64,000 nucleotides of DNA, taken from assembly GCF_026262505.1 (NCBI RefSeq), contig NC_067208.1, forward strand, positions 7,449,962 to 7,513,961. The letters are read 5' to 3'. Below, in pieces: positions 25,999 to 62,751 of this stretch. A program made the position numbers and the translations under genes. This DNA comes from Trichomonas vaginalis G3. Taxonomy: Eukaryota; Parabasalia; Trichomonadida; Trichomonadidae. The notes under the pieces were generated by a model that did not search any database, was not told the origin of the DNA, and saw only the letters and a list, made by a program, of their open reading frames with translations. Positions within the stretch are counted from its first letter, which is position 1, and each line of letters begins with the position of its first letter.

Positions 25999-27013
25999 AT
26001 GAAAACAATGAAATTCAATCACGATTTTCAGATAACAGTATCAAAACACACATCAACTATAAATAATTTACACTTTGATCAATTACCTAATAATGTTTGG
26101 GAACTATTTTACAATACATCACCTAATTCAAAACCAATTCAAGGTACAAATGTTACAGCAAGATCAACAAATAATGAATGCTTCTTATATAACTGTATAT
26201 TCATCACCATTACGACCAATAGTGCCATTTATTTTACGAATACAAGAAATAAATTTCTTAACTCATATTGTTCATTTACTAACTGCAGCAGTAATACAAA
26301 TGGTGGATCTATATACTTTTCCTGTGATAGTTCCATTGTCCAATACCGAACATGTGGCTATAAATCAAAAACAAACTCATATGGGCATCATTCATATGTA
26401 GAATTAGTTTCTAAATCAAATAATAAAAATTATCTTTATGAAAGTTCTTTTTATTTATGCGGAAATTTAGAAAAATATTGTACAAATCTTCTTTGGTATG
26501 GAAATATTGAAGTTAAATCAATCAACACAAGTTTCTGTGAAGCAGCTGACTCAGGAATATATTTATCCAACAAGTCTAAGTAATGTAACATATTCATCAT
26601 TTTGTAACACAACATCAAATTATAGAATTTTAGAATTAGATTATGGTAACTATAATTTTAATTTTTGTAATGTTTTGAATAATGAACTCAAAATCTAATA
26701 TGGAACATTCTATGCAGATGAATCAACTGTTCTTATTGAAAACTGTTCATTTCTTGGAAACACAGGACCAGGAGTAGAATTTTGTCAAGATTATTCTGGT
26801 TCAATTACAGTTAAAGATTCTTTCTGTGACAGAATAATAGGTAAAACATATCAATCAGTTATAACAAATAATGTTAAAAATATATATTCTATTCATAATC
26901 TTTCTCACTTTTCATCATATCTGTGTGAAGCTGAGTTTCCTATTATAGATAAAAAGCCTATGAGATCTGCTTTTGATTTATATCATCAATTTTCCTTTAG
27001 ACGAAGGCGTTAA
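25999..27013 (+). pseudogene. Gene A copy 2, frameshifted
   Basis: It is open from ATG 25999 to 26583, then out of frame at the CEAADSG region where sister copies read CEADYDSG; a further in-frame TAA lies near 26697 (CTCAAAATCTAA). The original 3' end, including the basic RRR tail, remains to 27013. Its first half matches copy 3 closely (HHSYVELVSKS). Confidence 0.85.
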
Positions 27014-27093
27014 TATTCATGATTTATGAATTTATATAATCAAAAAATTGTAATTAAAGACCATTATTAACGAAAGCATTCATCAATTGTTTA

Positions 27094-28612
27094 AGGCTCC
27101 GGTCCCACCCTCTCAATTTTAAAAGTTTTAATATCTCCACCAATATGAGTTTTTGATACTTTTATTTTAGTACATAATATCATTATGTAATACACTATAG
27201 TATAGTATATTTAAACTGAGTATTACTATTATAGTTCATCTTATCTGAGAATTCGGTATTTTGACAAATTTCAACTTTGACCGGTAAAACTATTTATAAT
27301 CAAAAAAGCCCACGACATTTTATAGCATATTAGTGATACATTATATTGTTATTAGTAAACTTGATTTACAATCTCTTCTAGATGAGTAATTTGTTTTTTT
27401 GAAAAAATCTGACAAATCACTTTTTGACAGAATCTAGATATTTTTGATTTGTGAAAGTTTTAATAATATGATAAGGTTTATATATGCTATCATAATATAA
27501 TAAAATCATATAATGTTACATTATCGCTATATATGTCGAATATTAAAAAATTGTATATTAACATTTTTTGTCATATCTTGATAATAAAGAAAAAACTCTC
27601 AGTTCCCCTTCGACAAATTGTTAGAATGCAACTAAAGTTTATTTTGATATAGTGAGTTTGCTTCTAAAAAAATATATGAAAGAAGAATTAGATTTGCAAG
27701 ACCCCTATAAAAAACGATTTTTGCGTCGAGAATAACTTCATGCACGATTAATTGATATGATAATAAAAATCATATATGATAATTACTTAATATAGGCAAC
27801 AATATTGTATTAATCACTTTTTGTCAAAACGGTTTTTCGATAATTGAGTATTCAATTTTCCAAAAATCCATTCAATAATTTGATTTATAATTCAACGTAT
27901 AAGAAAAAACTCTCAGTTCCCCTTCGACAATTTGTAAAGAAAATTATATAGTTTCTGTCGACACTATTTGTATATTCTACCTTCTTCGGTATTTCGAAGA
28001 ATTAGGTTTGCAAATTTGATATTTTTGATGTATTTTTTCAAATTGAGAGTATTTTTGACGATAGAAGTAGGTGTTTTTTGAATTACAATTTTATATTGAT
28101 GTGCATGATAAAAATTTGAACTTATATTATGGTGACATAGTATAAGTCATAATGTATTAATATACAAAAGATATTATCAAAAAATTCCTTTCCAATATGT
28201 ATAAACAAATCGATTTTTTAAATTAAATTTAAACCTTAAACTCAATATATTAAAAAGTGACATTATTTTAATTAGAAGTACAAAAATCCATAGTCATAGA
28301 ATTATCAAATGATTGAAAATTGTTATAATTGGGCACATTATACTCATTTATGAATTTACTATACTATATACTTTGCAAATTTAAAAATCCAAATTTTCAA
28401 TTTTTAAAATATCATTATTTATCATATATCAAATAGTAAAGTTAGTATATATCATGTTTAAAACGATAATATAGTCAAATTCGAAAATTTTAAAAATAGA
28501 TAATATTTAATTTTTACAAAATATTGGTATATGTGCAATCTATTGGTATATTTTTACTCCTTATTAGACACTCGTCCTAACTATATGCAGTAATCATGCA
28601 GGACCGGAGCCT
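27094..28612. mobile_element. 1.5-kb element with AAGGCTCCGGTCC inverted ends and TA flanks
   Basis: Inverted ends AGGCTCCGGTCC and GGACCGGAGCCT are flanked by TA (27092-27093, 28613-28614), as for Tc1/mariner-like elements. No transposase ORF is present. An internal direct repeat GAAAAAACTCTCAGTTCCCC begins near 27590 and 27903. Its flanks are a duplication of about 600 bp (26497-27093 and 28617-29223) rather than a simple empty site. Confidence 0.75.
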
Positions 28613-28616
28613 TAAA

Positions 28617-29144
28617 TATGGAAATATTGAAGTTAAATCAATCAACACAAGTTTCTGTGAAGCAGACTATGACTCAGGAATACTTCTAAATCAACCAACA
28701 AGTCTAAGTAACGTAACATATTCATCATTTTGTAACACAACATCATATTATAGAATTTTAGAATTAGATTATGGTAACTATAATTTTAATTTTTGTAATG
28801 TTTTGAATAATGAACACAAAAAATCTGATTATGGAACATTCTGTGCAGATGGATCAAATGTTCTTATTGAAAACTGTTCATTTCTTGGAAACACAGGACC
28901 AGGAGTAGAATTTTATCAAGATTATTCTGGTTCAATTACAGTTAAAGATTCTTTCTGTGACAGAATAATAGGTAAAACATATCAATCAGTTATAACAAAT
29001 AATGTTAAAAATATATATTCTATTCATAATCTTTCTCACTTTTCATCATATCTGTGTGAAGCTGAGTTTCCTATTATAGATAAAAAGCCTATGAGATCTG
29101 CTTTTGATTTATATCATCAATTTTCCTTTAGACGAAGGCGTTAA
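28617..29144 (+). pseudogene. Gene A 3' half, orphan fragment
   Basis: It begins at GGAAATATTGAAGTTAAATC and is open to the normal stop; its sequence matches the last half of copy 3, including CEADYDSGILLNQ and the basic end. It lacks a 5' half and hairpin, so it is a partial duplicate joined to the TA element. Confidence 0.88.
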
Positions 29145-30089
29145 TATTCATGATTTATGAATTTATATAATCAAAAAATTGTAATTAAAGACCATTATTA
29201 ACGAAAGCATTCATCAATTGTTTAATATCAATTGAAATATGAAAAACTTTATATTCAAAAGATGATGCGGCTTGATTTCTCAATTTAATTTTCAAAGAGT
29301 TCGTATTTGTTACAGTGAATTTAAATAATTAGTACTGATATAGTAATGCAATAATATCGGGAACATGGCTCTTAATTTCGAAATAGGTTTTCTTTGTAAG
29401 GCATCTAAGTATTAACAAACTGATATTTCAATAAAGAGTTCAATATTATAATAGAAATTTGCTATGACAGAAAGAATAAAACTATAGCAAAAAGAATTAT
29501 TGTTATTTCGATGATATTTTGTAATATTCTTCGTTTACAAATGATTGGACATTGTATCTTGGGGAGATGTTGGATAATAAATTTAACGATTTCTTATTCA
29601 ATTCTATTATATCATTGCTATCTTGAAGTGGAAAATTTTTCTTAAGAGTGCACTTACACCTGTATTACATGTCCTTCGATTCAGATGTTTAAGGTTAATT
29701 TTCAATGACACTTCACGCCATTTGTCAGAAATTTGAATTAAAGTCAGATACGCGTAAGTGCACCCTTAAGAACATTTGTCATTACAAGTATAAGTAAAGA
29801 CACTCAAGATGCATTTTTGTCATTCAATAATCTATTCTCTCGCTATTGCAAACAATTTCAAATGTCGCATTCAATTTCTGTGTAATACAATATCATTCAC
29901 TAGGATCAGTTTATTCATAACTTTACTCACTTTTCAACATATTTCTGTAAAGCAGGATAAATATGCTTCCAATACGTAACATCATTTATCATTTTCCTTT
30001 AGACAAGTGCGTTAATTTTTCAAGGATTTATTATTATCGTTTTTTATTATTAAAAATAATTTTTTTACAAACAAAAAAAATAAAAAAAC
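29145..30089. other. Gene A-ANK spacer with two relics (unit 2)
   Basis: Minus-strand pieces near 29555-29635 (DIIELNKKSLNLLSNISP) resemble the ankyrin N-terminal relic at 24430-24480. The 3' end of a copy-1-type gene A remains at about 29905-30015 (matching 18170-18287, with deletions). The 120-bp MITE lies between them. No intact gene is present. Confidence 0.5.
29646..29765. mobile_element. 120-bp TTAA-flanked MITE (unit 2)
   Basis: TTAA at 29642-29645 and 29766-29769 flanks inverted ends GAGTGCACTTAC and GTAAGTGCACCC. The GTGCAC end and TTAA target are shared with the 1.04-kb element, so the two are probably related. Confidence 0.82.
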
Positions 30090-30757
30090 TCATTTATTTA
30101 AAAGAAGATTAATGATATCTTCGTTCTTTGTCTGGAGTGCGACGTCTTTAGCTGTGTGTCCTTCGCTGTCAACAACACTCAAATCGAGGTCTTCACGAGA
30201 AAGAGAACTTTGACAACTTCGATTTTTTCGTTTTCAATAGCGTTGAAAATAGGAGTTCGCTTCATCAAGTTCTGACGGTTGACATCGACATTTTCGTGTT
30301 GAAGCAACTCTTCGACGAAACTAGTTGAGCCGCATTTAGCGGCAACATGGAGAGGTGTCCACTGGATTGAGTCGACGCAGTTCAAGTCAACGTCATCTCG
30401 ATCGGCGAAAAGACGGATTAAGTCTGAGAAATCATTAGATGCAGCGATGTGAAGAGGTGTGAAACTAGAATCATCAGGAAGTTGTGGATTGACATCTTTG
30501 TCGTTCAGAAGACACTCAACGCACTGTTTGTGGTGGAGAAGAACTGCGTAATGAAGAGCACTGCGATTCTTCTTGTCGACGATGTTCTTCTCGATGCCTG
30601 GAAAACTCAAGAGAAGTTCTAAAGCTTCGAAATGTCCGTCACGAGCTGCCCGGATCAATGCTGTACGTGATGAGTTGTTAGTGGCATTGACATCAATGGA
30701 TGGATCAGAAAGAAGAAGTCGCAGAACACGTGTGTGACCATTAATTGCTCTCAACAT
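30090..30757 (-). pseudogene. ANK copy 2, one-base deletion near the 3' end
   Basis: It matches copy 3 except that AAAAGAG is AAAGAG at about 30202-30207, which shifts the frame in the sixth repeat and ends the protein at 192 residues instead of 222. Confidence 0.85.
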
Positions 30758-30840
30758 AACACTTTAATTGTCAACATCTTCTTACAGTTAAAGAATTCTG
30801 TAACAAATTCAATTTATTTGATTTATCAGATACTAATGTT

Positions 30841-31047
30841 TTAAAAAAGCATATTGTTTTGATCAATTTCATCTAATTCAATATTGCATTCTATTACTGC
30901 TACTAAACAATTCATTGTTTCGGCATATTCCATACAATTCGTATTTGTCAAAAAATTAAACATCAAATCCCAAATAGGATATAAATGATTTTTGTAGATA
31001 CTAATTCTCGAAATTAATGTAGAGATGTTGGATATAAGACTAGTCAT
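30841..31047 (-). pseudogene. 68-codon ankyrin-gene segment (unit 2)
   Basis: The encoded protein is identical to that of the unit 1 segment, directly next to the TTAA element as there. Confidence 0.5.
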
Positions 31048-31054
31048 ATATTAA

Positions 31055-32095
31055 GGGTGCACACGAGAGGATCATGTAAACTTCAGAATTTAGAACCTTA
31101 TTTTTAGGCATTATCTTGGCTACCTATTTAGGCTCGAAAAGCAAAAAAATATCAAAAAATACAACTTGACTCCATTATGACCCTTTCATGGAGGTAGTTT
31201 TTATCCGCTAGTATTTTCCCTTTGAATCTCTTTACAATTCGAAATCAAATTCAAATCTCAGTAGAAGAAAGGAAGAATCGACTTACTACGGTTGTAATAC
31301 GAATAAATACATATATTTAATTATTTTTATTTACATAATAATTGTTTGAAGCTCATATTCCAACAAATTTTTAAATAAAAACATTAAAATGTTGAAAATG
31401 TTCATATATTTTAATAGGGTTTTGGCACTTTATTGAGGAATTACTACATACATAGTCGAACTGAACTTATATTTTGAAATTTAAATTATTTATCAAAATT
31501 AAAATTTAACTTGAAATTTATAATTATTTAGTCATATTTTGCATAATTCTAAGTAGATTTTGTAAAAAATCAAGAAAGAAAAATTTTAACGTGCTTTATT
31601 TTTTCTTTTTTATAATAATACATATTATTATATAATTAACATATTCATAATGTTTCACCCTTTCAAAAATATCCTCCTCCTCCTCTCAAATAAACGTACA
31701 TACGGGTGGCCTCTTTTTTCAAAAAATTAAAATTTGAAATTTTGGGCTCAAATATTAGAGATTTTTTCAACCTTCAACGATATATGTTGTCTATATCAGA
31801 CCTCCTTTCTTTTTGATACTTAACATTGTTCCTAAATCTTAGCCGTTAAGGCTGTTCTGAAAATATTTTTTTTTCGAAAAAATTCGAAAAAAATTCTTAA
31901 AATTCAAAAATCCCTTAATTCCTGAGGATTTTGGAAAAAAGTTTTTACATGAACATGTGTATATTATATGAAGTATATTGATAAGGTAAAAATCAAATTT
32001 TATTGCATATTCATCGAGAAAATAAACTAACGAATCCCTCAAAATTGAGAGGGTAATCCTCCTCCTCTCAAATAAACGTACATACGGGTGCACCC
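31055..32095. mobile_element. TTAA-bounded 1041-bp element (unit 2), empty for hAT
   Basis: TTAA at 31051-31054 and 32096-32099. The hAT target CAAATATT is present once near 31748. The right-end sequence is duplicated internally near 31687. Confidence 0.85.
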
Positions 32096-32099
32096 TTAA

Positions 32100-32641
32100 G
32101 TATATCAATAATGTTTTCTTAGTTTACATATTATTGATATTTGTATCATGCTGAAATGTGAGATCAATTCGATTGTATCATCGCTTATCTTGATGTGGTA
32201 AATTTTTGTCATTTCAACTATAAATGGAATAATTATAGGTTCAAAACGAACAGTGTAAATGTCGTCGAACATTTCAATGCATACGAATTTGAAATCAATA
32301 TGTGTATCTTCTACAAGGTACTGATCAATGTATGATTTAAATTTTTAGAAAATTATCTCTGTTTTAGTTTAATAAAATAATATTGCGCGGTGAATTTGTA
32401 TCTCAAAATTATGTAACTGTATCGGTAACAACTTCAAATGTCTTATTGACAAGATTTGTAAAAAAAAATCAAAAATATACTTGAGATCATATAAATGTGC
32501 TCTTCTCTTTATAACGTAAGAATTGATCAAAGATAACATGTGTACTACTGATTGATTTTGGAGGATTGCTATGATTAGAGACGATTTGATTAAATAATTC
32601 AATGAAAAATGGACTATTTGATTCATCAATTAGGAGATTCG
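32100..32641 (-). pseudogene. Decayed N-terminal ankyrin-gene segment (unit 2)
   Basis: Counterpart of 24369-24910 with the same stops. Confidence 0.45.
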
Positions 32642-33663
32642 ATTGTTTGTATTCGATTGCACTTCTGCATTTGGTGAATTAGTTGTATCGTAAATCAAGG
32701 AAAGTTAATCATCTGCTGTGATACTCTTAAAAAATTAAAAGAACGAATTTTTTTTCTAAATACAATTAATGGCATCAGATGATTAGATTACTTTTTTAGA
32801 AATCATCAATCAAATTTGGCATATTTTTGAAAGAATATCTAAAGACAAGACACCCAATAAGAGTTTTTGTGCATACGGTTCTCGGGCGCCTATGTCACAT
32901 TCACAAAGGACTCCGTCTTTATTAGCAAACTCAGAAGAAATGTTTAACCAAAAGAAAAATTATTTCATCAAGACTAATAAATGTTTTAAAAAAGCAAATC
33001 ACATCATTAACATATCAGTTTTAATTACAAAACTCAACGATACATAACAAATTTCTTCGAAATTTAAATTCTCATTAAAAAATTCTTTTGATACAAATTA
33101 AATAGCTACATATTCGATTTTCCCATTGATACGAACTTATTGTTTTCATTCAAGATTTACAAGAAATCAAATACTTATTTCACAACAACAAATATCTATT
33201 TTTACTCAAACACGAGCATGTATTTACTAATAAATTCATGTTTTTACATCATTACATTTGACAATACTATCAAAACAACCCCAAAATCAAACTAATTTTC
33301 GATATTCTTTATTCAGACCAGAGAATTCATATAAATCATCGATTACTCAAATTTAAGTATTCATTTAATGTAATAATTGTTAGATATTAGGCGTTTTATA
33401 TAAAAATTCTCCCTATTTCAAATTTTCAAGCGAATTAAGTCGATATTTCATACATTTTATAATATACAAATCATGTGTAAGTACAATAGCTTTAATTATT
33501 TACAATATTGATCATTTTATTACGAAATCCAAAAATTTAATCAGCAAAATCGATGTTTTTATATAAGATTAGAATGATTTACATCATTGTTTCCATGCAC
33601 TAGCTGTTAAAATGCTGATGACAGCTAAAAGAATCGCAATTTCATAACTTGAATATAAGATTC
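32642..33663. other. AT-rich spacer (unit 2/3)
   Basis: Near-identical to 24911-25932; nothing coding seen. Confidence 0.6.
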
Positions 33664-33724
33664 AAATGAATCGGCATTATTTGACATTTACATCATTGAA
33701 ATGTCAAATAATGCCGATTCATTT
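33664..33724. promoter_or_regulatory. Perfect 26-bp hairpin (gene A copy 3)
   Basis: Same arms and loop as 25933-25993, with the same uORF and TGATG overlap at 33728-33732. Confidence 0.75.
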
Positions 33725-33729
33725 TTTTG

Positions 33730-34755
33730 ATGAAAACAATGAAATTCAATCACGATTTTCAGATAACAGTATCAAAACACACATCAACTATGAATAATTT
33801 ACACTTTGATCAATCATCTGCTGATGTTTGGAAGTTATTTTACAATACATCACCTAATTCAAAACCAATTCAAGGTACAAATGTTACAGCAAGATCAACA
33901 AATAATGAATGCTTCTTATATAACTGTATATTCATCACCATTACGACCAATAGTGCCATTTATTTTACGAATACAAGAAATAAATTTCTTAACTCATATT
34001 GTTCATTTACTAACTGCAGCAGTAATACAAATGGTGGATCTATATACTTTTCCTGTGATAGTTCCATTGTCCAATACCGAACATGTGGCTATAAATCAAA
34101 AACAAACTCATATGGGCATCATTCATATGTAGAATTAGTTTCTAAATCAAATAATAAAAATTATCTTTATGAAAGTTCTTTTTATTTATGCGGAAATTTA
34201 GAAAAATATTGTACAAATCTTCTTTGGTATGGAAATATTGAAGTTAAATCAATCAACACAAGTTTCTGTGAAGCAGACTATGACTCAGGAATACTTCTAA
34301 ATCAACCAACAAGTCTAAGTAACGTAACATATTCATCATTTTGTAACACAACATCATATTATAGAATTTTAGAATTAGATTATGGTAACTATAATTTTAA
34401 TTTTTGTAATGTTTTGAATAATGAACACAAAAAATCTGATTATGGAACATTCTGTGCAGATGGATCAAATGTTCTTATTGAAAACTGTTCATTTCTTGGA
34501 AACACAGGACCAGGAGTAGAATTTTATCAAGATTATTCTGGTTCAATTACAGTTAAAGATTCTTTCTGTGACAGAATAATAGGTAAAACATATCAATCAG
34601 TTATAACAAATAATGTTAAAAATATATATTCTATTCATAATCTTTCTCACTTTTCATCATATCTGTGTGAAGCTGAGTTTCCTATTATAGATAAAAAGCC
34701 TATGAGATCTGCTTTTGATTTATATCATCAATTTTCCTTTAGACGAAGGCGTTAA
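33730..34755 (+). CDS. Gene A copy 3: intact cysteine-rich probable beta-helix protein
   Basis: Read from ATG 33730 the protein has 341 residues. TTG just upstream is not used, as eukaryotic starts are ATG. Strand-like repeats lie at CSFTNCSS (91-98), GGSIYF (102-107), CNTTSY (205-210), ENCSFLGNTGPG (251-262) and ITVKDSFC (273-280), with about a dozen cysteines and many N-x-S/T sites. No signal peptide or membrane span is evident, and the end is basic (SFRRRR). The pattern suggests a parallel beta-helix surface-type domain, but I know no named family. Residues 28-46 (DQSSADVWKLF) and 126-140 (the loop before NNKNYLYE) differ most between copies. Confidence 0.72.
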   Translation: MKTMKFNHDFQITVSKHTSTMNNLHFDQSSADVWKLFYNTSPNSKPIQGTNVTARSTNNECFLYNCIFITITTNSAIYFTNTRNKFLNSYCSFTNCSSNTNGGSIYFSCDSSIVQYRTCGYKSKTNSYGHHSYVELVSKSNNKNYLYESSFYLCGNLEKYCTNLLWYGNIEVKSINTSFCEADYDSGILLNQPTSLSNVTYSSFCNTTSYYRILELDYGNYNFNFCNVLNNEHKKSDYGTFCADGSNVLIENCSFLGNTGPGVEFYQDYSGSITVKDSFCDRIIGKTYQSVITNNVKNIYSIHNLSHFSSYLCEAEFPIIDKKPMRSAFDLYHQFSFRRRR

Positions 34756-35700: not shown

Positions 35701-36369
35701 TCATTTATTTAAAAGAAGATTAATGATATCTTCGTTCTTTGTCTGGAGTGCGACGTCTTTAGCTGTGTGTCCTTCGCTGTCAACAACACTCAAATCGAGG
35801 TCTTCACGAGAAAAGAGAACTTTGACAACTTCGATTTTTTCGTTTTCAATAGCGTTGAAAATAGGAGTTCGCTTCATCAAGTTCTGACGGTTGACATCGA
35901 CATTTTCGTGTTGAAGCAACTCTTCGACGAAACTAGTTGAGCCGCATTTAGCGGCAACATGGAGAGGTGTCCACTGGATTGAGTCGACGCAGTTCAAGTC
36001 AACGTCATCTCGATCGGCGAAAAGACGGATTAAGTCTGAGAAATCATTAGATGCAGCGATGTGAAGAGGTGTGAAACTAGAATCATCAGGAAGTTGTGGA
36101 TTGACATCTTTGTCGTTCAGAAGACACTCAACGCACTGTTTGTGGTGGAGAAGAACTGCGTAATGAAGAGCACTGCGATTCTTCTTGTCGACGATGTTCT
36201 TCTCGATGCCTGGAAAACTCAAGAGAAGTTCTAAAGCTTCGAAATGTCCGTCACGAGCTGCCCGGATCAATGCTGTACGTGATGAGTTGTTAGTGGCATT
36301 GACATCAATGGATGGATCAGAAAGAAGAAGTCGCAGAACACGTGTGTGACCATTAATTGCTCTCAACAT
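35701..36369 (-). CDS. ANK copy 3: ankyrin-repeat protein, intact
   Basis: 222 residues ending DIINLLLNK. The bases AAAAGAG at 35812-35818 keep the frame and change one leucine to phenylalanine (VLFSRED) relative to copies 1 and 7. The repeat layout is as in copy 1, with the usual stop retained. Confidence 0.83.
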   Translation of the reverse strand: MLRAINGHTRVLRLLLSDPSIDVNATNNSSRTALIRAARDGHFEALELLLSFPGIEKNIVDKKNRSALHYAVLLHHKQCVECLLNDKDVNPQLPDDSSFTPLHIAASNDFSDLIRLFADRDDVDLNCVDSIQWTPLHVAAKCGSTSFVEELLQHENVDVNRQNLMKRTPIFNAIENEKIEVVKVLFSREDLDLSVVDSEGHTAKDVALQTKNEDIINLLLNK

Positions 36370-39338: not shown

Positions 39339-40346
39339 ATGAAAACAATGAAATTCAATCACGATCTTCAGATAACAGTATCAAAACACACATCAACTAT
39401 GAATAATTTACACTTTGATCAATTACCTGATGATGTTTGGAACTATTTTACAATACATCACCTAATCAAACCAATTCAAGGTACAAATGTTACAGCAAGA
39501 TCAACAAATAATGAATGCTTCTTATATAACTGTATATTCATCACCATTACGACCAATAGTGCCATTTATTTTACGAATACAAGAAATAAATTTCTTAACT
39601 CATATTGTTCATTTACTAACTGCAGCAGTAATACAGATGGTGGATCTATCTACTTTAACTGTGATAGTTCCATTGTCCAATACCGAACATGTGGCTACAA
39701 ATCAAAAACAAACTCTCAAGAAGGACATCATTCATATGTTAAATTAGTTTATAATTCAAATAATAAAAATTATCTTTATGAAAGTTCTTTTTATTTATGC
39801 GGAAATTTAGAAAAATTTTACAAATCTTCTTTTATGGAAATATTGAAGTTAAATCAATCAACACAAGTTTCTGTGAAGCAGACTGACTCAGGAATATTTA
39901 TCAACCAACAAGTCTAGTAATGTAACATATTCATCATTTTGTAACACAACATCATATTATACAATTTTAAATTAGAATGGTAACTATAATTTTAATTTTT
40001 GTAATGTTTTGAATAATGAAACAAAAAATCTGATTATAGAACATTCTATGCATTTGGATCAACTGTTCTTATTGAAAACTGTTCATTTCTTGGAAACACA
40101 GGACCAGGAAAAGAATTTTATCAAGATTATTCTGGTTCAATTACAGTTAAAGATTCTTTCTGTGACAGAATAATAGAAAACATATCAATCAGTTATAACA
40201 AATAATGTTAAAATATATATTCTATTCATAATCTTTCTCACTTTTCATCATATCTGTGTGAAGCTGAGTTTCCTATTATAGATAAAAAGCCTATGAGATC
40301 TGCTTTTGATTTATATCATCAATTTTCCTTTAGACGAAGGCGTTAA
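39339..40346 (+). pseudogene. Gene A copy 4, many small deletions
   Basis: Deletions after DDVW first shift the frame and then restore it before IQGTNVTAR. Further one- to three-base losses follow from about 39818 (FYKSSFMEI reading, then stop at 39917) and continue to 40215. Most losses fall at positions where sister copies differ from each other. The intact 3' end with the basic tail is kept. Confidence 0.85.
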
Positions 40347-41291: not shown

Positions 41292-41959
41292 TCATTTATT
41301 TAAAAGAAGATTAATGATATCTTCGTTCTTTGTCTGGAGTGCGACGTCTTTAGCTGTGTGTCCTTCGCTGTCAACAACACTCAAATCGAGGTCTTCACGA
41401 GAAAGAGAACTTTGACAACTTCGATTTTTTCGTTTTCAATAGCGTTGAAAATAGGAGTTCGCTTCATCAAGTTCTGACGGTTGACATCGACATTTTCGTG
41501 TTGAAGCAACTCTTCGACGAAACTAGTTGAGCCGCATTTAGCGGCAACATGGAGAGGTGTCCACTGGATTGAGTCGACGCAGTTCAAGTCAACGTCATCT
41601 CGATCGGCGAAAAGACGGATTAAGTCTGAGAAATCATTAGATGCAGCGATGTGAAGAGGTGTGAAACTAGAATCATCAGGAAGTTGTGGATTGACATCTT
41701 TGTCGTTCAGAAGACACTCAACGCACTGTTTGTGGTGGAGAAGAACTGCGTAATGAAGAGCACTGCGATTCTTCTTGTCGACGATGTTCTTCTCGATGCC
41801 TGGAAAACTCAAGAGAAGTTCTAAAGCTTCGAAATGTCCGTCACGAGCTGCCCGGATCAATGCTGTACGTGATGAGTTGTTAGTGGCATTGACATCAATG
41901 GATGGATCAGAAAGAAGAAGTCGCAGAACACGTGTGTGACCATTAATTGCTCTCAACAT
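41292..41959 (-). pseudogene. ANK copy 4, one-base deletion
   Basis: Same AAAGAG deletion as copy 2, protein ends at 192 residues (41381). Confidence 0.85.
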
Positions 41960-44926: not shown

Positions 44927-45937
44927 TTTGATGAAAACAATGAATTCAATCACGATTTTCAGATAACAGTATCAAAACACACATCAACTATGAATAATTT
45001 ACATTTTGATCAATTACCTGCTGATGTTTGGAAGTTATTTTACAATACATCACCTAATTCAGAACCAATTCAAGGTACAAATGTTACAGCAAGATCAACA
45101 AATAATGAATGCTTCTTATATAACTGTATATTCATCACCATTACAACTAATAGTGCCATTTATTTTACGAATACAAACAATAAATTTCTTAACTCATATT
45201 GTTCATTTACTAACTGCAGCAGTAATACAAATGGTGGATCTATATACTTTAACTGTGATAGTTCCATTGTCCAATACCGAACATGTGGCTACAAATCAAA
45301 AACAAACTCTCAGAAGGACATTTCATATGTTTGTTAGTTAATTCAAATAATAAAAATTATCTTTATGAAAGTTCTTTTTATGAATGCGGAAATTTAGAAA
45401 AAGATTATACAAATCTTCTTTATTATGGAAATATTGAAGTTAAATCAATCAACACAAGTTTCTGTGAAGCAGCTGACTCAGGAATATTTTAATCAACCAA
45501 CAAGTCTAAGTAACGTAACATATTCATCATTTTGTAACACAACATCAAATTATAGAATTTTAGAATTAGATTATGGTAACTATAGTTTTAATTTTTGTAA
45601 TGTTTTGAATAATGAACACAAAAATCTGATTATGAACATTCTATGCATTTGGATCAAATGTTCTTATTGAAAACTGTTCATTTCTTGGAAACACAGGACC
45701 AGGAGAAATTTTATCAATTATTCTGGTTCAATTACAGTTAAAGATTCTTTCTGTGACAGAATAATAGATAAACATATCATCAGTTATAACAAATAATGTT
45801 AAAATATATATTCTATTCATAATCTTTCTCACTTTTCATCATATCTGTGTGAAGCTGAGTTTCCTATTATAGATAAAAAGCCTATGAGATCTGCTTTTGA
45901 TTTATATCATCAATTTTCCTTTAGACGAAGGCGTTAA
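44903..45937 (+). pseudogene. Gene A copy 5, frameshifted; alternative longer N-terminus
   Basis: Here the ATG inside the hairpin (44903) is in frame and gives MSNNADSFFDENNEF before the shared FNHDFQITVSK. This needs both the lost T near 44930 and a lost A near 44944. The frame is open to 45337, then broken in the variable loop (SQKDISYVC), again near 45490 and 45630, and near 45770-45810. The 3' end to 45937 is conserved. Confidence 0.83.
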
Positions 45938-46882: not shown

Positions 46883-47550
46883 TCATTTATTTAAAAGAAG
46901 ATTAATGATATCTTCGTTCTTTGTCTGGAGTGCGACGTCTTTAGCTGTGTGTCCTTCGCTGTCAACAACACTCAAATCGAGGTCTTCACGAGAAAGAGAA
47001 CTTTGACAACTTCGATTTTTTCGTTTTCAATAGCGTTGAAAATAGGAGTTCGCTTCATCAAGTTCTGACGGTTGACATCGACATTTTCGTGTTGAAGCAA
47101 CTCTTCGACGAAACTAGTTGAGCCGCATTTAGCGGCAACATGGAGAGGTGTCCACTGGATTGAGTCGACGCAGTTCAAGTCAACGTCATCTCGATCGGCG
47201 AAAAGACGGATTAAGTCTGAGAAATCATTAGATGCAGCGATGTGAAGAGGTGTGAAACTAGAATCATCAGGAAGTTGTGGATTGACATCTTTGTCGTTCA
47301 GAAGACACTCAACGCACTGTTTGTGGTGGAGAAGAACTGCGTAATGAAGAGCACTGCGATTCTTCTTGTCGACGATGTTCTTCTCGATGCCTGGAAAACT
47401 CAAGAGAAGTTCTAAAGCTTCGAAATGTCCGTCACGAGCTGCCCGGATCAATGCTGTACGTGATGAGTTGTTAGTGGCATTGACATCAATGGATGGATCA
47501 GAAAGAAGAAGTCGCAGAACACGTGTGTGACCATTAATTGCTCTCAACAT
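46883..47550 (-). pseudogene. ANK copy 5, one-base deletion
   Basis: Same deletion as copy 2; 192-residue reading ends at 46972. Confidence 0.85.
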
Positions 47551-50519: not shown

Positions 50520-51525
50520 ATGAAAACAATGAAATTCAATCACGATCTTCAGATAACAGTATCAAAACACACATCAACTATGAATAATTTACACTTTGAT
50601 CAATTACCTGATGATGTTTGGAAGTTATTTTACAATACATCACCTAAATCAGAACCAATTCAAGGTACAAATGTTACAGCAAGATCAACAAATAATGAAT
50701 GCTTCTTATATAACTGTATATTCATCACCATTACGACCAATAGTGCCATTTATTTTACGAATACAAAAATAAATTTCTTAACTCATATTGTTCATTTACT
50801 AACTGCAGCAGTAATACAGATGGTGGATCTATCTACTTTAACTGTGATAGTTCCATTGTCCAATACCGAACATGTGGCTACAAATCAAAAACAAACTCTC
50901 AAGAAGGACATTTCATATGTTTTAGTTTAAATTCAAATAATAAAAATTATCTTTATGAAAGTTCTTTTTATTGCGGAAATTTAGAAAAATCTTTACAAAT
51001 TTCTTTTATGGAAATATTGAAGTTAAATCAATCAACACAAGTTTCTGTGAAGCAGCTGACTCAGGAATACTTTAAATCAACCAACAAGTCTAGTAACGTA
51101 ACATATTCATCATTTTGTAACACAACATCAAATTATAGAATTTTAGAATTAGATTATGGTAACTATAATTTTAATTTTTGTAATGTTTTGAATAATGAAC
51201 ATAAAAATCTGATTATGAACATTCTATGCATTTGGATCAAATGTTCTTATTGAAAACTGTTCATTTCTTGGAAACACAGGACCAGGTAGAATTTTATCAA
51301 GATTATTCTGGTTCAATTACAGTTAAAGATTCTTTCTGTGACAGAATAACAGATAAAACATATATACCAGTTACAACAAATAGTGTTAAAAATATATATT
51401 CTATTCATAATCTTTCTCACTTTTCATCATATTTGTGTGAAGCAGAGTTTCCTATTTTAGATAAAAAGCCTATGAGATCTGCTTTTGATTTATATCATCA
51501 ATTTTCCTTTAGACGAAGGCGTTAA
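50520..51525 (+). pseudogene. Gene A copy 6, frameshifted
   Basis: It is open from ATG 50520 to a loss of two bases near 50766 (FTNTKINFL), after which the frame is wrong to 50930; more losses occur near 50921-51005, 51094 and 51220-51290. The last 100 codons (51226-51525) are open and differ from other copies by a few codons (DKTYIPVTTNSVKN, FPILDKK). Confidence 0.85.
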
Positions 51526-52470: not shown

Positions 52471-53138
52471 TCATTTATTTAAAAGAAGATTAATGATATC
52501 TTCGTTCTTTGTCTGGAGTGCGACGTCTTTAGCTGTGTGTCCTTCGCTGTCAACAACACTCAAATCGAGGTCTTCACGAGAAAGAGAACTTTGACAACTT
52601 CGATTTTTTCGTTTTCAATAGCGTTGAAAATAGGAGTTCGCTTCATCAAGTTCTGACGGTTGACATCGACATTTTCGTGTTGAAGCAACTCTTCGACGAA
52701 ACTAGTTGAGCCGCATTTAGCGGCAACATGGAGAGGTGTCCACTGGATTGAGTCGACGCAGTTCAAGTCAACGTCATCTCGATCGGCGAAAAGACGGATT
52801 AAGTCTGAGAAATCATTAGATGCAGCGATGTGAAGAGGTGTGAAACTAGAATCATCAGGAAGTTGTGGATTGACATCTTTGTCGTTCAGAAGACACTCAA
52901 CGCACTGTTTGTGGTGGAGAAGAACTGCGTAATGAAGAGCACTGCGATTCTTCTTGTCGACGATGTTCTTCTCGATGCCTGGAAAACTCAAGAGAAGTTC
53001 TAAAGCTTCGAAATGTCCGTCACGAGCTGCCCGGATCAATGCTGTACGTGATGAGTTGTTAGTGGCATTGACATCAATGGATGGATCAGAAAGAAGAAGT
53101 CGCAGAACACGTGTGTGACCATTAATTGCTCTCAACAT
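52471..53138 (-). pseudogene. ANK copy 6, one-base deletion
   Basis: Same deletion as copy 2; 192-residue reading ends at 52560. Confidence 0.85.
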
Positions 53139-53221: not shown

Positions 53222-53428
53222 TTAAAAAAGCATATTGTTTTGATCAATTTCATCTAATTCAATATTGCATTCTATTACTGCTACTAAACAATTCATTGTT
53301 TCGGCATATTCCATACAATTCGTATTTGTCAAAAAATTAAACATCAAATCCCAAATAGGATATAAATGATTTTTGTAGATACTAATTCTCGAAATTAATG
53401 TAGAGATGTTGGATATAAGACTAGTCAT
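53222..53428 (-). pseudogene. 68-codon ankyrin-gene segment (unit 6)
   Basis: Same 68 residues as in the other units. Confidence 0.5.
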
Positions 53429-53435
53429 ATATTAA

Positions 53436-54474: not shown

Positions 54475-54478
54475 TTAA

Positions 54479-56042: not shown

Positions 56043-56103
56043 AAATGAATCGGCATTATTTGACATTTACATCATTGAAATGTCAAATAATGCCGATTCA
56101 TTT
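56043..56103. promoter_or_regulatory. Perfect 26-bp hairpin (gene A copy 7)
   Basis: Same arms, loop and uORF as in unit 2. Confidence 0.75.
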
Positions 56104-56108
56104 TTTTG

Positions 56109-57135
56109 ATGAAAACAATGAAATTCAATCACGATCTTCAGATAACAGTATCAAAACACACATCAACTATGAATAATTTACACTTTGATCAATCACCTAA
56201 TAATGTTTGGGAACTATTTTACAATACATCACCTAATTCAAAACCAATTCAAGGTACAAATGTTACAGCAAGATCAACAAATAATGAATGCTTCTTATAT
56301 AACTGTATATTCATCACCATTACGACCAATAGTGCCATTTATTTTACGAATACAAGAAATAAATTTCTTAACTCATATTGTTCATTTACTAACTGCAGTA
56401 GTAATACAGAAGGTGGATCTCTCTACTTTAACTGTAATAGTTCCATTGTCCAATACCGAACATGTGGCTACAAATCAAAAACAAACTCACGAGAAGGACA
56501 TTTTTCATATGTTTGGTTAGTTCGAGATTCAAATAATAAAAATTATCTTTATGAAAGTTCTTTTTATTTATGCGGAAATTTAGAAAAATATTGTACAAAT
56601 CTTCTTTGGTATGGAAATATTGAAGTTAAATCAATCAACACAAGTTTCTGTGAAGCAGACTATGACTCAGGAATACTTCTAAATCAACCAACAAGTCTAA
56701 GTAACGTAACATATTCATCATTTTGTAACACAACATCATATTATAGAATTTTAGAATTAGATTATGGTAACTATAATTTTAATTTTTGTAATGTTTTGAA
56801 TAATGAACACAAAAAATCTGATTATGGAACATTCTCTGCATTTGGATCAAATGTTCTTATTGAAAACTGTTCATTTCTTGGAAACACAGGACCAGGAGTA
56901 GAATTTTATCAAGATTATTCTGGTTCAATTACAGTTAAAGATTCTTTCTGTGACAGAATAATAGATAAACATATCAATCAGTTATAACAAATAATGTTAA
57001 AATATATATTCTATTCATAATCTTTCTCACTTTTCATCATATCTGTGTGAAGCTGAGTTTCCTATTATAGATAAAAAGCCTATGAGATCTGCTTTTGATT
57101 TATATCATCAATTTTCCTTTAGACGAAGGCGTTAA
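56109..57135 (+). pseudogene. Gene A copy 7, truncated near the C-terminus by small deletions
   Basis: It is open for 292 residues from ATG 56109 and stops at 56987, because GATAAACATATC replaces GGTAAAACATATC; a second base is lost near 57000. About 50 C-terminal residues, including the basic tail, are out of frame. The N-terminal variable block matches copy 2 (NNVWELFYN), the middle matches copy 8 (NTEGGSLYFNCNSS) and the later part matches copy 3, giving a mosaic. Confidence 0.83.
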
Positions 57136-58080
57136 TATTCATGATTTATGAATTTATATAATCAAAAAATTGTAATTAAAGACCATTATTAACGAAAGCA
57201 TTCATCAATTGTTTAATATCAATTGAAATATGAAAAACTTTATATTCAAAAGATGATGCGGCTTGATTTCTCAATTTAATTTTCAAAGAGTTCGTATTTG
57301 TTACAGTGAATTTAAATAATTAGTACTGATATAGTAATGCAATAATATCGGGAACATGGCTCTTAATTTCGAAATAGGTTTTCTTTGTAAGGCATCTAAG
57401 TATTAACAAACTGATATTTCAATAAAGAGTTCAATATTATAATAGAAATTTGCTATGACAGAAAGAATAAAACTATAGCAAAAAGAATTATTGTTATTTC
57501 GATGATATTTTGTAATATTCTTCGTTTACAAATGATTGGACATTGTATCTTGGGGAGATGTTGGATAATAAATTTAACGATTTCTTATTCAATTCTATTA
57601 TATCATTGCTATCTTGAAGTGGAAAATTTTTCTTAAGAGTGCACTTACACCTGTATTACATGTCCTTCGATTCAGATGTTTAAGGTTAATTTTCAATGAC
57701 ACTTCACGCCATTTGTCAGAAATTTGAATTAAAGTCAGATACGCGTAAGTGCACCCTTAAGAACATTTGTCATTACAAGTATAAGTAAAGACACTCAAGA
57801 TGCATTTTTGTCATTCAATAATCTATTCTCTCGCTATTGCAAACAATTTCAAATGTCGCATTCAATTTCTGTGTAATACAATATCATTCACTAGGATCAG
57901 TTTATTCATAACTTTACTCACTTTTCAACATATTTCTGTAAAGCAGGATAAATATGCTTCCAATACGTAACATCATTTATCATTTTCCTTTAGACAAGTG
58001 CGTTAATTTTTCAAGGATTTATTATTATCGTTTTTTATTATTAAAAATAATTTTTTTACAAACAAAAAAAATAAAAAAAC
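57136..58080. other. Gene A-ANK spacer with relics (unit 7)
   Basis: Near-identical counterpart of 29145-30089. Confidence 0.5.
57637..57756. mobile_element. 120-bp TTAA-flanked MITE (unit 7)
   Basis: Same insertion as in unit 2. Confidence 0.82.
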
Positions 58081-58749
58081 TCATTTATTTAAAAGAAGAT
58101 TAATGATATCTTCGTTCTTTGTCTGGAGTGCGACGTCTTTAGCTGTGTGTCCTTCGCTGTCAACAACACTCAAATCGAGGTCTTCACGAGAAAGGAGAAC
58201 TTTGACAACTTCGATTTTTTCGTTTTCAATAGCGTTGAAAATAGGAGTTCGCTTCATCAAGTTCTGACGGTTGACATCGACATTTTCGTGTTGAAGCAAC
58301 TCTTCGACGAAACTAGTTGAGCCGCATTTAGCGGCAACATGGAGAGGTGTCCACTGGATTGAGTCGACGCAGTTCAAGTCAACGTCATCTCGATCGGCGA
58401 AAAGACGGATTAAGTCTGAGAAATCATTAGATGCAGCGATGTGAAGAGGTGTGAAACTAGAATCATCAGGAAGTTGTGGATTGACATCTTTGTCGTTCAG
58501 AAGACACTCAACGCACTGTTTGTGGTGGAGAAGAACTGCGTAATGAAGAGCACTGCGATTCTTCTTGTCGACGATGTTCTTCTCGATGCCTGGAAAACTC
58601 AAGAGAAGTTCTAAAGCTTCGAAATGTCCGTCACGAGCTGCCCGGATCAATGCTGTACGTGATGAGTTGTTAGTGGCATTGACATCAATGGATGGATCAG
58701 AAAGAAGAAGTCGCAGAACACGTGTGTGACCATTAATTGCTCTCAACAT
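58081..58749 (-). CDS. ANK copy 7: ankyrin-repeat protein, intact
   Basis: 222 residues with the AAAGGAG version of the variable site, as in copy 1 (VLLSRED), and the normal stop as in copy 3. It is the most canonical ANK copy in the window. Confidence 0.84.
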   Translation of the reverse strand: MLRAINGHTRVLRLLLSDPSIDVNATNNSSRTALIRAARDGHFEALELLLSFPGIEKNIVDKKNRSALHYAVLLHHKQCVECLLNDKDVNPQLPDDSSFTPLHIAASNDFSDLIRLFADRDDVDLNCVDSIQWTPLHVAAKCGSTSFVEELLQHENVDVNRQNLMKRTPIFNAIENEKIEVVKVLLSREDLDLSVVDSEGHTAKDVALQTKNEDIINLLLNK

Positions 58750-58832
58750 AACACTTTAATTGTCAACATCTTCTTACAGTTAAAGAATTCTGTAACAAAT
58801 TCAATTTATTTGATTTATCAGATACTAATGTT

Positions 58833-59039
58833 TTAAAAAAGCATATTGTTTTGATCAATTTCATCTAATTCAATATTGCATTCTATTACTGCTACTAAAC
58901 AATTCATTGTTTCGGCATATTCCATACAATTCGTATTTGTCAAAAAATTAAACATCAAATCCCAAATAGGATATAAATGATTTTTGTAGATACTAATTCT
59001 CGAAATTAATGTAGAGATGTTGGATATAAGACTAGTCAT
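58833..59039 (-). pseudogene. 68-codon ankyrin-gene segment (unit 7)
   Basis: Same 68 residues as in the other units. Confidence 0.5.
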
Positions 59040-59046
59040 ATATTAA

Positions 59047-60088
59047 GGGTGCACACGAGAGGATCATGTAAACTTCAGAATTTAGAACCTTATTTTTAGG
59101 CATTATCTTGGCTACCTATTTAGGCTCGAAAAGCAAAAAAATATCAAAAAATACAACTTGACTCCATTATGACCCTTTCATGGAGGTAGTTTTTATCCGC
59201 TAGTATTTTCCCTTTGAATCTCTTTACAATTCGAAATCAAATTCAAATCTCAGTAGAAGAAAGGAAGAATCGACTTACTACGGTTGTAATACGAATAAAT
59301 ACATATATTTAATTATTTTTATTTACATAATAATTGTTTGAAGCTCATATTCCAACAAATTTTTAAATAAAAACATTAAAATGTTGAAAATGTTCATATA
59401 TTTTAATAGGGTTTTGGCACTTTATTGAGGAATTACTACATACATAGTCGAACTGAACTTGATATTTTGAAATTTAAATTATTTATCAAAATTAAAATTT
59501 AACTTGAAATTTATAATTATTTAGTCATATTTTGCATAATTCTAAGTAGATTTTGTAAAAAATCAAGAAAGAAAAATTTTAACGTGCTTTATTTTTTCTT
59601 TTTTATAATAATACATATTATTATATAATTAACATATTCATAATGTTTCACCCTTTCAAAAATATCCTCCTCCTCCTCTCAAATAAACGTACATACGGGT
59701 GGCCTCTTTTTTCAAAAAATTAAAATTTGAAATTTTGGGCTCAAATATTAGAGATTTTTTCAACCTTCAACGATATATGTTGTCTATATCAGACCTCCTT
59801 TCTTTTTGATACTTAACATTGTTCCTAAATCTTAGCCGTTAAGGCTGTTCTGAAAATATTTTTTTTTCGAAAAAATTCGAAAAAAATTCTTAAAATTCAA
59901 AAATCCCTTAATTCCTGAGGATTTTGGAAAAAAGTTTTTACATGAACATGTGTATATTATATGAAGTATATTGATAAGGTAAAAATCAAATTTTATTGCA
60001 TATTCATCGAGAAAATAAACTAACGAATCCCTCAAAATTGAGAGGGTAATCCTCCTCCTCTCAAATAAACGTACATACGGGTGCACCC
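59047..60088. mobile_element. TTAA-bounded element (unit 7)
   Basis: TTAA at 59043-59046 and 60089-60092; empty hAT site near 59742. Confidence 0.85.
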
Positions 60089-60092
60089 TTAA

Positions 60093-60634
60093 GTATATCA
60101 ATAATGTTTTCTTAGTTTACATATTATTGATATTTGTATCATGCTGAAATGTGAGATCAATTCGATTGTATCATCGCTTATCTTGATGTGGTAAATTTTT
60201 GTCATTTCAACTATAAATGGAATAATTATAGGTTCAAAACGAACAGTGTAAATGTCGTCGAACATTTCAATGCATACGAATTTGAAATCAATATGTGTAT
60301 CTTCTACAAGGTACTGATCAATGTATGATTTAAATTTTTAGAAAATTATCTCTGTTTTAGTTTAATAAAATAATATTGCGCGGTGAATTTGTATCTCAAA
60401 ATTATGTAACTGTATCGGTAACAACTTCAAATGTCTTATTGACAAGATTTGTAAAAAAAAATCAAAAATATACTTGAGATCATATAAATGTGCTCTTCTC
60501 TTTATAACGTAAGAATTGATCAAAGATAACATGTGTACTACTGATTGATTTTGGAGGATTGCTATGATTAGAGACGATTTGATTAAATAATTCAATGAAA
60601 AATGGACTATTTGATTCATCAATTAGGAGATTCG
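60093..60634 (-). pseudogene. Decayed N-terminal ankyrin-gene segment (unit 7)
   Basis: Counterpart of 24369-24910. Confidence 0.45.
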
Positions 60635-61656
60635 ATTGTTTGTATTCGATTGCACTTCTGCATTTGGTGAATTAGTTGTATCGTAAATCAAGGAAAGTTA
60701 ATCATCTGCTGTGATACTCTTAAAAAATTAAAAGAACGAATTTTTTTCTAAATACAATTAATGGCATCAGATGATTAGATTACTTTTTTTAGAAATCATC
60801 AATCAAATTTGGCATATTTTTGAAAGAATATCTAAAGACAAGACACCCAATAAGAGTTTTTGTGCATACGGTTCTCGGGCGCCTATGTCACATTCACAAA
60901 GGACTCCGTCTTTATTAGCAAACTCAGAAGAAATGTTTAACTAAAAGAAAAATTATTTCATCAAGACTAATAAATGTTTTAAAAAAGCAAATCACATCAT
61001 TAACATATCAGTTTTAATTACAAAACTCAACGATACATAACAAATTTCTTCGAAATTTAAATTCTCATTAAAAAATTCTTTTGATACAAATTAAATAGCT
61101 ACATATTCGATTTTCCCATTGATACGAACTTATTGTTTTCATTCAAGATTTACAAGAAATCAAATACTTATTTCACAACAACAAATATCTATTTTTACTC
61201 AAACACGAGCATGTATTTACTAATAAATTCATGTTTTTACATCATTACATTTGACAATACTATCAAAACAACCCCAAAATCAAACTAATTTTCGATATTC
61301 TTTATTCAGACCAGAGAATTCATATAAATCATCGATTACTCAAATTTAAGTATTCATTTAATGTAATAATTGTTAGATATTAGGCGTTTTATATAAAAAT
61401 TCTCCCTATTTCAAATTTTCAAGCGAATTAAGTCGATATTTCATACATTTTATAATATACAAATCATGTGTAAGTACAATAGCTTTAATTATTTACAATA
61501 TTGATCATTTTATTACGAAATCCAAAAATTTAATCAGCAAAATCGATGTTTTTATATAAGATTAGAATGATTTACATCATTGTTTCCATGCACTAGCTGT
61601 TAAAATGCTGATGACAGCTAAAAGAATCGCAATTTCATAACTTGAATATAAGATTC
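60635..61656. other. AT-rich spacer (unit 7/8)
   Basis: Near-identical to 24911-25932; nothing coding seen. Confidence 0.6.
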
Positions 61657-61717
61657 AAATGAATCGGCATTATTTGACATTTACATCATTGAAATGTCAA
61701 ATAATGCCGATTCATTT
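61657..61717. promoter_or_regulatory. Perfect 26-bp hairpin (gene A copy 8)
   Basis: Same arms, loop and uORF as in unit 2. Confidence 0.75.
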
Positions 61718-61722
61718 TTTTG

Positions 61723-62751
61723 ATGAAAACAATGAAATTCAATCACGATCTTCAGATAACAGTATCAAAACACACATCAACTATGAATAATTTACACTTT
61801 GATCAATCACCTGATGATGTTTGGGAACTCTTTTACAATACACAACCTAATTCAGAACCAATTCGTGGCACAAACGTTACAGCTAAATCGACAAATAATG
61901 AGTGTTTCATATTTGAAAGCATATTTATCGCTATTACGACCAATAGTGCCATTTATTTTACGAATACAAGCAATAAATTTCTTAATTCCGATTGTTCATT
62001 TACTAACTGCAGTAGTAATACAGAAGGTGGATCTCTCTACTTTAACTGTAATAGTTCCATTGTCCAATACCGAACATGTGGCTACAAATCAAAAACAAAC
62101 TCACGAGAAGGACATTTTTCATATGTTTGGTTAGTTCGAGATTCAAATAATAAAAATTATCTTTATGAAAGTTCTTTTTATTTATGCGGAAATTTAGAAA
62201 AATATTGTACAAATCTTCTTTGGTATGGAAATATTGAAGTTAAATCAATCAACACAAGTTTCTGTGAAGCAGACTATGACTCAGGAATACTTCTAAATCA
62301 ACCAACAAGTCTAAGTAACGTAACATATTCATCATTTTGTAACACAACATCATATTATAGAATTTTAGAATTAGATTATGGTAACTATAATTTTAATTTT
62401 TGTAATGTTTTGAATAATGAACACAAAAAATCTGATTATGGAACATTCTGTGCAGATGGATCAAATGTTCTTATTGAAAACTGTTCATTTCTTGGAAACA
62501 CAGGACCAGGAGTAGAATTTTATCAAGATTATTCTGGTTCAATTACAGTTAAAGATTCTTTCTGTGACAGAATAATAGGTAAAACATATCAATCAGTTAT
62601 AACAAATAATGTTAAAAATATATATTCTATTCATAATCTTTCTCACTTTTCATCATATCTGTGTGAAGCTGAGTTTCCTATTATAGATAAAAAGCCTATG
62701 AGATCTGCTTTTGATTTATATCATCAATTTTCCTTTAGACGAAGGCGTTAA
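61723..62751 (+). CDS. Gene A copy 8: intact, distinctive N-terminal third
   Basis: 342 residues from ATG 61723. The segment at 61820-61990 is clearly different from copies 2-7 (PNSEPIRGTNVTAKS, CFIFESIFIAITTNS, NKFLNSDCSF) with many synonymous and non-synonymous changes, partly recalling copy 1 (LNSDCSF). From about 62010 it matches copy 7, and its 3' half matches copy 3, including the full C-terminus and SFRRRR tail. The sharp switches suggest recombination between gene A variants. Confidence 0.73.
   Translation: MKTMKFNHDLQITVSKHTSTMNNLHFDQSPDDVWELFYNTQPNSEPIRGTNVTAKSTNNECFIFESIFIAITTNSAIYFTNTSNKFLNSDCSFTNCSSNTEGGSLYFNCNSSIVQYRTCGYKSKTNSREGHFSYVWLVRDSNNKNYLYESSFYLCGNLEKYCTNLLWYGNIEVKSINTSFCEADYDSGILLNQPTSLSNVTYSSFCNTTSYYRILELDYGNYNFNFCNVLNNEHKKSDYGTFCADGSNVLIENCSFLGNTGPGVEFYQDYSGSITVKDSFCDRIIGKTYQSVITNNVKNIYSIHNLSHFSSYLCEAEFPIIDKKPMRSAFDLYHQFSFRRRR

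Follow-up and report, generated by a model that had tools for sequence, protein, structure and literature searches.

Why should the copies of one gene differ from each other in blocks while the DNA around them stays almost the same? The question arises in a stretch of 64,000 nucleotides on contig C6 of Trichomonas vaginalis G3 (hereafter the window; the genome comprises 180.85 Mb in 86 contigs), where a unit with a period of about 5.6 kb is repeated in tandem and carries both a gene that we call gene A and an ankyrin-repeat (ANK) gene. A preliminary description of the window had taken the gene A copies for patchwork mosaics, as in a variant-cassette system. We found that the mosaic family of variable cassettes is real and genome-wide, and we ascribe it, with a probability of roughly 0.7, to segmental gene conversion together with diversifying selection on one face of the beta-helix that the cassettes are predicted to form.

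Units 2-8 of the array start at positions 24019, 31749, 37360, 42952, 48539, 54129 and 59742. The comparisons are based on the following features.

17217..18287, + strand: gene A copy 1, an open but divergent frame with a different upstream flank and a cassette about 79% identical to that of copy 3
24019..31748, + strand: unit 2, with an internal partial duplication of about 2.1 kb that holds a second gene A fragment (28596-29144)
26080..26960 (end approximate), + strand: cassette of gene A copy 2, frame not fully open
31749..33720, + strand: 5' flank of unit 3 (the U1 frame)
33727..34755, + strand: gene A copy 3, an open frame of 342 amino acids
33811..34690, + strand: variable cassette of copy 3, the reference in every cassette comparison
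35701..36369, - strand: ANK gene of unit 3, near-invariant across units (the copy in unit 7 gave ankyrin profile matches)
39420..40271 (end approximate), + strand: cassette of gene A copy 4, frame broken in the assembly
45011..45862 (end approximate), + strand: cassette of gene A copy 5, frame broken in the assembly
50601..51450 (end approximate), + strand: cassette of gene A copy 6, frame broken in the assembly
56190..57070 (end approximate), + strand: cassette of gene A copy 7, a copy-2-like/copy-8-like mosaic with a frame that breaks near the end
61720..62751, + strand: gene A copy 8, an open frame of 343 amino acids, the protein of which was used for the structure model

Across units 3-8 substitutions were found in 112 of the 880 columns (12.7%) of the cassette and in 2 of 90 (2.2%) of the leader, against 4 of 1972 in the 5' flank, 0 of 1010 in the C-terminal tail and 3' flank, 1 of 669 in ANK and 4 of 990 in the rest of the unit after ANK (i.e. 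0-0.4% of columns in flanks and ANK). This bears out the earlier observation that gene A varies between units within nearly unchanged surroundings, and it is not what uniform substitution along the units would give. Between the open copies 3 and 8, for instance, 54 substitutions fall in the cassette, as opposed to a single one in 1974 columns of 5' flank. The amino-acid blocks reported before do contain real cassette variation, but in copies 4-6 they are partly a frame-shifted reading with no substitution behind it.

Searched against the genome, copy 8 gave 124 matches, by an eye count 103 on C6 and 21 on C1-C5, numbers that are lower bounds because some copies are split into at least two matches and scoring covered 118 of 1236 candidates. 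The window and 55 loci yielded 67 distinct cassettes after matches shorter than 600 nt had been dropped, as well as 9 of 76 cassette matches that were duplicates (at least one of these comes from another place in the genome where the sequence is identical); the 20 cassettes whose frame is not open over 99% were excluded from the codon analyses, leaving 47. At the protein level copy 8 matched 33 proteins, those with a named source being hypothetical proteins of T. vaginalis G3 (TVAG_ and TVAGG3_ entries), most of them called "right-handed beta helix" in UniRef. A repeat search from a distant member yielded none beyond the same 33 among the proteins listed. Gene A matched no Pfam family, and a set of 28 proteins gave only four weak matches, each of a single member.

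When 700 nt on each side of the cassettes were clustered (matches of at least 250 nt and at least 80%), the upstream flanks fell into classes U1 (29 copies), U2 (11), U3 (5), one class of 2 and 20 singles, and the downstream flanks into D1 (20), D2 (15), D3 (5), D4 (4), two classes of 2 and 19 singles. U1 occurs with D1, D2, D3 and D4, U2 with D1 and D2, and single upstream flanks with D1 and D4; over the 67 cassettes these mixed combinations support a cassette that pairs independently with its upstream and downstream flanks. The upstream classes share homology only from, or shortly before, the first cassette codon, and its onset is abrupt. The U1 flank is widespread: a piece of it (32250-33700, 1451 nt) has 36 full-length genome matches of 98-100% identity, window copies included, among 40 of 44 candidates that were scored. 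C-terminal tails of two kinds, basic (D1) and conserved, weakly hydrophobic (D2/D4), were seen behind one upstream class, e.g. at loci L016, L020 and L023; in the 10 copies scored the tails are at most weakly hydrophobic.

The contrast between cassette and surroundings is also found outside the array. Among 17 dispersed open U1 copies (on C3, C4 and C6) the median pairwise distance is 0.31% over 1300 nt of 5' flank and 9.2% over the cassette; the mean for the flank is 0.30% (maximum 1.0%) and rises to 3.1% when L014, the upstream end of which differs, is included. Compared with unit 3 in bins, identity is mostly 97-100% in U1/D1 flanks, with lower bins (68-95%) at L008, L012, L013, L015, L022, L024, L029, L031, L032, L044 and L054, and mostly 83-98% in the cassette, going down to 63% where the flanks differ.

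The tests for recombination and selection were directed at dispersed open-frame copies, because the indels of the array copies look like a consensus of mixed reads (see below); the pairwise homoplasy index (PHI) test on U1 copies and the repeat of the tract test leave out the window copies. For the 17 dispersed open U1 copies PHI fell below each of 500 permuted values, as it did when codons 100-300 were taken separately, and for the 47 copies it was below all 200; incompatible pairs make up 62-64% of the pairs of informative sites. Exact tracts of 130-179 nt link copies with different flanks at different loci, and tracts of up to 325 nt link neighbours. A first tract test, with neighbouring copies included, gave a longest run of 213, whereas none of 200 permutations went beyond 129. 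In the repeat, between different loci, the mean longest shared run was 42.8 polymorphic sites, a value that in 500 permutations never exceeded 28.3; the longest run of all (131) is less extreme, being equalled in 4 of these 500. A tract in copy 8 offers an example.

61865..61969, + strand: tract of 105 nt in copy 8 that is the same in five startless (U2) copies at other loci

The nearest U1 copy differs from copy 8 by 6 nt in codons 15-30 and by 10 nt in codons 30-45, against 2 and 0 nt for the nearest of the five U2 copies, all of which share the tract. PHI, the tracts across flank classes and the copy 8 tract together support the patchwork recombination between copies that the preliminary description had suggested checking. 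Its most explicit example, copy 7, was said to join a copy-2-like start, a copy-8-like middle and a copy-3-like end; in bins of 80 columns the first two parts were recovered, but the end is not specifically copy-3-like. In bin 33801 copy 2 is closest (1 difference versus 7-9), the next bin being a tie among copies 2, 3, 4 and 6; in bins 34041 and 34118 copy 7 equals copy 8 and the other copies differ by 4-17; from 34198 to about 34437 copies 2, 3 and 8 tie, and from 34518 copy 4, or copies 4 and 5, are closest.

Selection was assessed from nonsynonymous (pN) and synonymous (pS) differences per site. In the 17 dispersed U1 copies pN/pS is 2.80 in the C-terminal two thirds of the cassette (bootstrap 2.00-4.01) and 0.47 before it, in line with the ratio above 1 anticipated for the variable blocks. 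Within codons 100-300, 135 conserved codons have a pS of 0.064 and a pN of 0.022, and 36 hypervariable codons have a pN of 0.449. Variability peaks along the cassette with a period of 26 residues. The predicted fold of gene A is a right-handed parallel beta-helix that resembles solved beta-helix proteins. A Foldseek search gave no match at E <=0.001. Judging from the alternation of residues along the strands of the model, the variable residues would point outward.

Variation that is restricted to patches, with little synonymous change around them, could also be the work of a hypermutation aimed at these codons, of the kind known from diversity-generating retroelements, in place of shuffling. 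As a rule, diversity-generating retroelements change adenines only. The variable residues of gene A include W, K and E (by eye), which is wider than an adenine-only change of one codon would give; moreover, different flank classes have block haplotypes in common (3-7 per block), and the long identical tracts that bridge different flanks point to copying and not to mutation. We therefore consider hypermutation very improbable.

For gene conversion with diversifying selection we propose the following mechanism. A central cassette of about 880 bp, predicted to encode the right-handed parallel beta-helix, sits in several non-homologous flanks, of which the widespread U1 flank, with an initiator (Inr)-like motif, an ATG and a leader of 24-37 codons, would give translatable genes, and of which others carry open cassettes without a start codon. 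Conversion of segments of about 100-200 bp, regardless of flank, would transfer short variable blocks among the copies, with the startless copies presumably acting as donors, and selection would retain amino-acid differences at about one patch per coil, resulting in a hypervariable face on a fixed scaffold. We infer both this size, as that of single conversion events, and the direction of conversion. The variable region has sharp edges at about codon 25 and near the stop, probably because tracts between unlike flanks end where homology stops.

An upstream in-frame ATG is present in 25 of the 47 open cassettes and absent in 22, where a stop closes the frame 3-15 codons upstream (21 copies) or immediately (1 copy). 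An intron in front of the startless copies was considered and rejected: a motif like the 3' end of an intron (at most 3 mismatches, within 400 nt) is absent in 21 of the 22, and in the remaining one it lies 227 nt away. In all 19 open U1 copies TCATT precedes a candidate ATG by 8 or 11 nt; TCACT-type initiators at -9 to -20 are given for actin and tubulin genes of T. vaginalis in the accessible part of a published account (PMC9222396). In unit 3 this region is spanned by an inverted repeat.

33664..33724, + strand: perfect inverted repeat in unit 3 (arms of 26 bp, loop of 9 bp) that spans the first ATG of the U1 frame together with an Inr-like TCATT

Its right arm is missing in L013, L015 and L022 among the six U1 copies compared, which suggests that the repeat originated by a template switch. 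In most unit-type copies inspection by eye showed no hydrophobic segment in the leader that begins at the common ATG; a short hydrophobic N-terminal stretch was seen in a few (copy 1, L044, L015 and L022).

Several observations weigh against conversion with diversifying selection as formulated here. In codons 100-300 the full set of 47 copies gives a pN/pS of 1.64, below the value for U1 alone, and the startless U2 and U3 copies have a low N-terminal pN/pS (0.34), so that they may be expressed somehow or may have lost their start recently. Start-bearing copies are many, unlike the single expression site of classic systems, and no clear signal peptide was recognised on inspection by eye. Ten variable blocks keep a weak linkage, with co-identity in 1-51% of pairs against baselines of 0.6-9%; it exceeds the baseline in most cases and is often strongest between neighbouring blocks. 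Finally, a PHI-like test on 12 TVAG proteins alone was marginal (p 0.049), and only 67 cassettes of the family entered the analysis.

Startless cassettes may form an archive that gives short blocks to many start-bearing frames and in this way produces combinatorial hypervariable beta-helix faces; we put this forward tentatively, at somewhat less than even odds. Alternatively, the family may have evolved by birth and death with concerted evolution, in which recent segmental duplications spread the flanks and occasional conversion shuffles an old family, with neither donor or expression-site roles nor programmed switching. Several dispersed U1 copies have an interspersed repeat in common that is identically placed in the 5' flank, as segmental duplication would leave it, and a T. 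vaginalis family of about 123 genes, the transmembrane adenylyl cyclases, is described as recent and with some, albeit rare, gene conversion in the part of that paper available to us (PMC2914791). On the other hand, the synonymous difference in the cassette is 0.16 in codons 0-100 and 0.04 in codons 100-300, corresponding to some 53 and 13 times the median distance between flanks, and the pN/pS of 2.8 with the 26-residue period points to strong diversifying selection. We consider birth and death with concerted evolution unlikely. According to the same part of that paper about 46% of the cyclase genes are pseudogenes, proposed by its authors as a possible source of alternative sequence (PMC2914791). 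Gene A is likewise a large family with probable gene conversion; as far as that text goes, however, duplicated flanks are rare and synonymous changes predominate among the cyclases (PMC2914791), whereas recombination is pervasive and pN/pS exceeds 1 in the variable blocks of gene A.

The broken copies of the array need to be treated separately. Five of its seven cassettes (copies 2, 4, 5, 6 and 7) are not open. Together they hold 40 frame-shifting indels (37 deletions and 3 insertions), of which 35 are at most one codon away from a hypervariable codon (background 44%), and deletion columns number 50 of 880 in the cassette versus 8 in about 4640 columns of flank and ANK. In the best two-parent fits (best of 1081 pairs, with gaps elsewhere penalised, so that placement near differences is partly built in) every gap column lay near an allele difference, 11 in copy 2, 21 in copy 4, 18 in copy 5, 23 in copy 6 and 2 in copy 7; columns near such differences make up 38% in copies 4 and 6. 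The concentration of small deletions at allele differences, the predominance of deletions among the frame-shifting indels and the near-absence of indels in the array flanks lead us to consider it quite probable that the frame breaks, and perhaps some of the mosaic, are the consensus of reads from mixed alleles, an explanation that is compatible with conversion and selection in the dispersed copies. Indel enrichment alone is not specific to such an artefact, because in the dispersed broken copies, too, 65 of 88 frame-shifting indels lie close to hypervariable codons (many of them from the alignment of divergent copies), and of the gap columns of copy 2268 at L031, 3 are near allele differences and 4 away from them.

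Mixed reads, moreover, cannot yield variation that the reads lack, and the same variation is found in dispersed open copies. Over cassette residues 6-290 the dispersed copies L006, L014, L015, L024 and L029 are exactly equal to TVAG proteins, which we take to derive from the 2007 draft, and L007 and L022 to TVAGG3 proteins; the remaining seven TVAG proteins compared have no exact match among the 47 cassettes. Variability in the 12 TVAG proteins correlates with that in the genome (Spearman 0.76 over 285 positions), a comparison that is only partly independent because five copies are shared.

The preliminary description had seen silent donors in the broken array copies. Their deletions sit where alleles differ, as consensus errors would, and on this pattern pseudogene donors within the array were set aside as unproven; the startless dispersed copies are better candidates. 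Caution is called for wherever the assembly shows disrupted copies in a tandem array, since these may be consensus errors. L033 and L049 (C6, 7.53 and 7.59 Mb) hold one gene A cassette pair that differs by four small deletions and 0 substitutions, a further hint of consensus errors in duplicated DNA.

Antigenic variation by gene conversion is found with the variant surface glycoprotein (VSG) archive of trypanosomes, vlsE of Borrelia, msp2 of Anaplasma and pilE/pilS of Neisseria. Gene A shares with these systems a variable cassette between conserved edges, startless copies, segmental recombination and patchy diversifying change, but it has dozens of start-bearing copies in place of one expression site and concerns a beta-helix protein in a parabasalid. 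Lamprey variable lymphocyte receptors consist of leucine-rich repeats and are assembled somatically in an immune cell. They resemble gene A in having a solenoid scaffold, hypervariable residues once per coil and shuffled modules, whereas gene A consists of genomic copies of a beta-helix. If the archive-fed system proposed above is true, it would amount to a repertoire in the germline whose logic resembles that of variable lymphocyte receptors or of VSG mosaics.

The polymorphic membrane proteins (Pmps) of chlamydiae are beta-helical in the accessible parts of two reports (PMC11166332, PMC10715098). Pmps carry FxxN and GGA[ILV] repeats, and an ATPITK motif is shown for trichomonad Pmp-like proteins in the part of that study available to us (PMC6701047). 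As far as that source goes, gene A is like these proteins in being a large T. vaginalis family with repeat motifs (PMC6701047); the two D1-type gene A copies scored differ from them in having no clear transmembrane segment. Per cassette (n=47) we counted 0 GGA[ILV], 1.0 GGS[ILV] and 2.4 FxxN motifs, and ATPITK was found in 0 of 47 cassettes and, by eye, in none of the last 30 residues of the longest frame of 67 copies; gene A thus lacks both the GGA[ILV] repeat and the C-terminal ATPITK of the trichomonad Pmp family. Carbohydrate-active right-handed beta-helix proteins (PL6 lyases, GH136 and phage tailspikes) have 5-11% sequence identity to gene A, and a common fold does not show a function. 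Gene A may have a ligand-binding or immune-exposed role; a surface location and a part in antigenic variation are hypothetical.

Literature searches that combined T. vaginalis with right handed beta helix or used six family gene names, with subscription papers and supplements outside their scope, returned no paper on the gene A family, nor did any title listed in further searches concern it, and Trichomonas with parallel beta-helix and surface proteins returned a single paper, on Chlamydia. A 2025 review mentions antigenic variation in T. vaginalis in one clause of its accessible text (PMC12733157), and in the literature examined, partly in extract, we found no established mechanism of antigenic or adhesive variation in this species. 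Why T. vaginalis has huge gene families is an open question that gene A makes directly testable.

Some other features of the window may be mentioned. The ANK frame stops early in four of seven copies (30179-30757, 41381-41959, 46972-47550 and 52560-53138; 192 amino acids) and is longer, with 222-242 amino acids, at 18284-19012, 35701-36369 and 58081-58749, the sequence around it being otherwise near-identical. Rfam and tRNA scans of the window gave no matches. An interspersed repeat of about 1.05 kb (31049..32099), which partly forms the 5' flank of the unit, occurs on C1-C6 with 97-99% identity, 40 of 1207 candidates having been scored. Positions 2319-16616, upstream of gene A copy 1, hold genes that presumably belong to the Maverick/Polinton-like class; one product (2697-3671) matches the Pox_A32 ATPase, and two are KilA-N proteins (3687-4463 and 5150-5833). 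Both ends of 20011-24018 match 623-2014 at 99%, as though an insert of about 2.6 kb had split one repeat.

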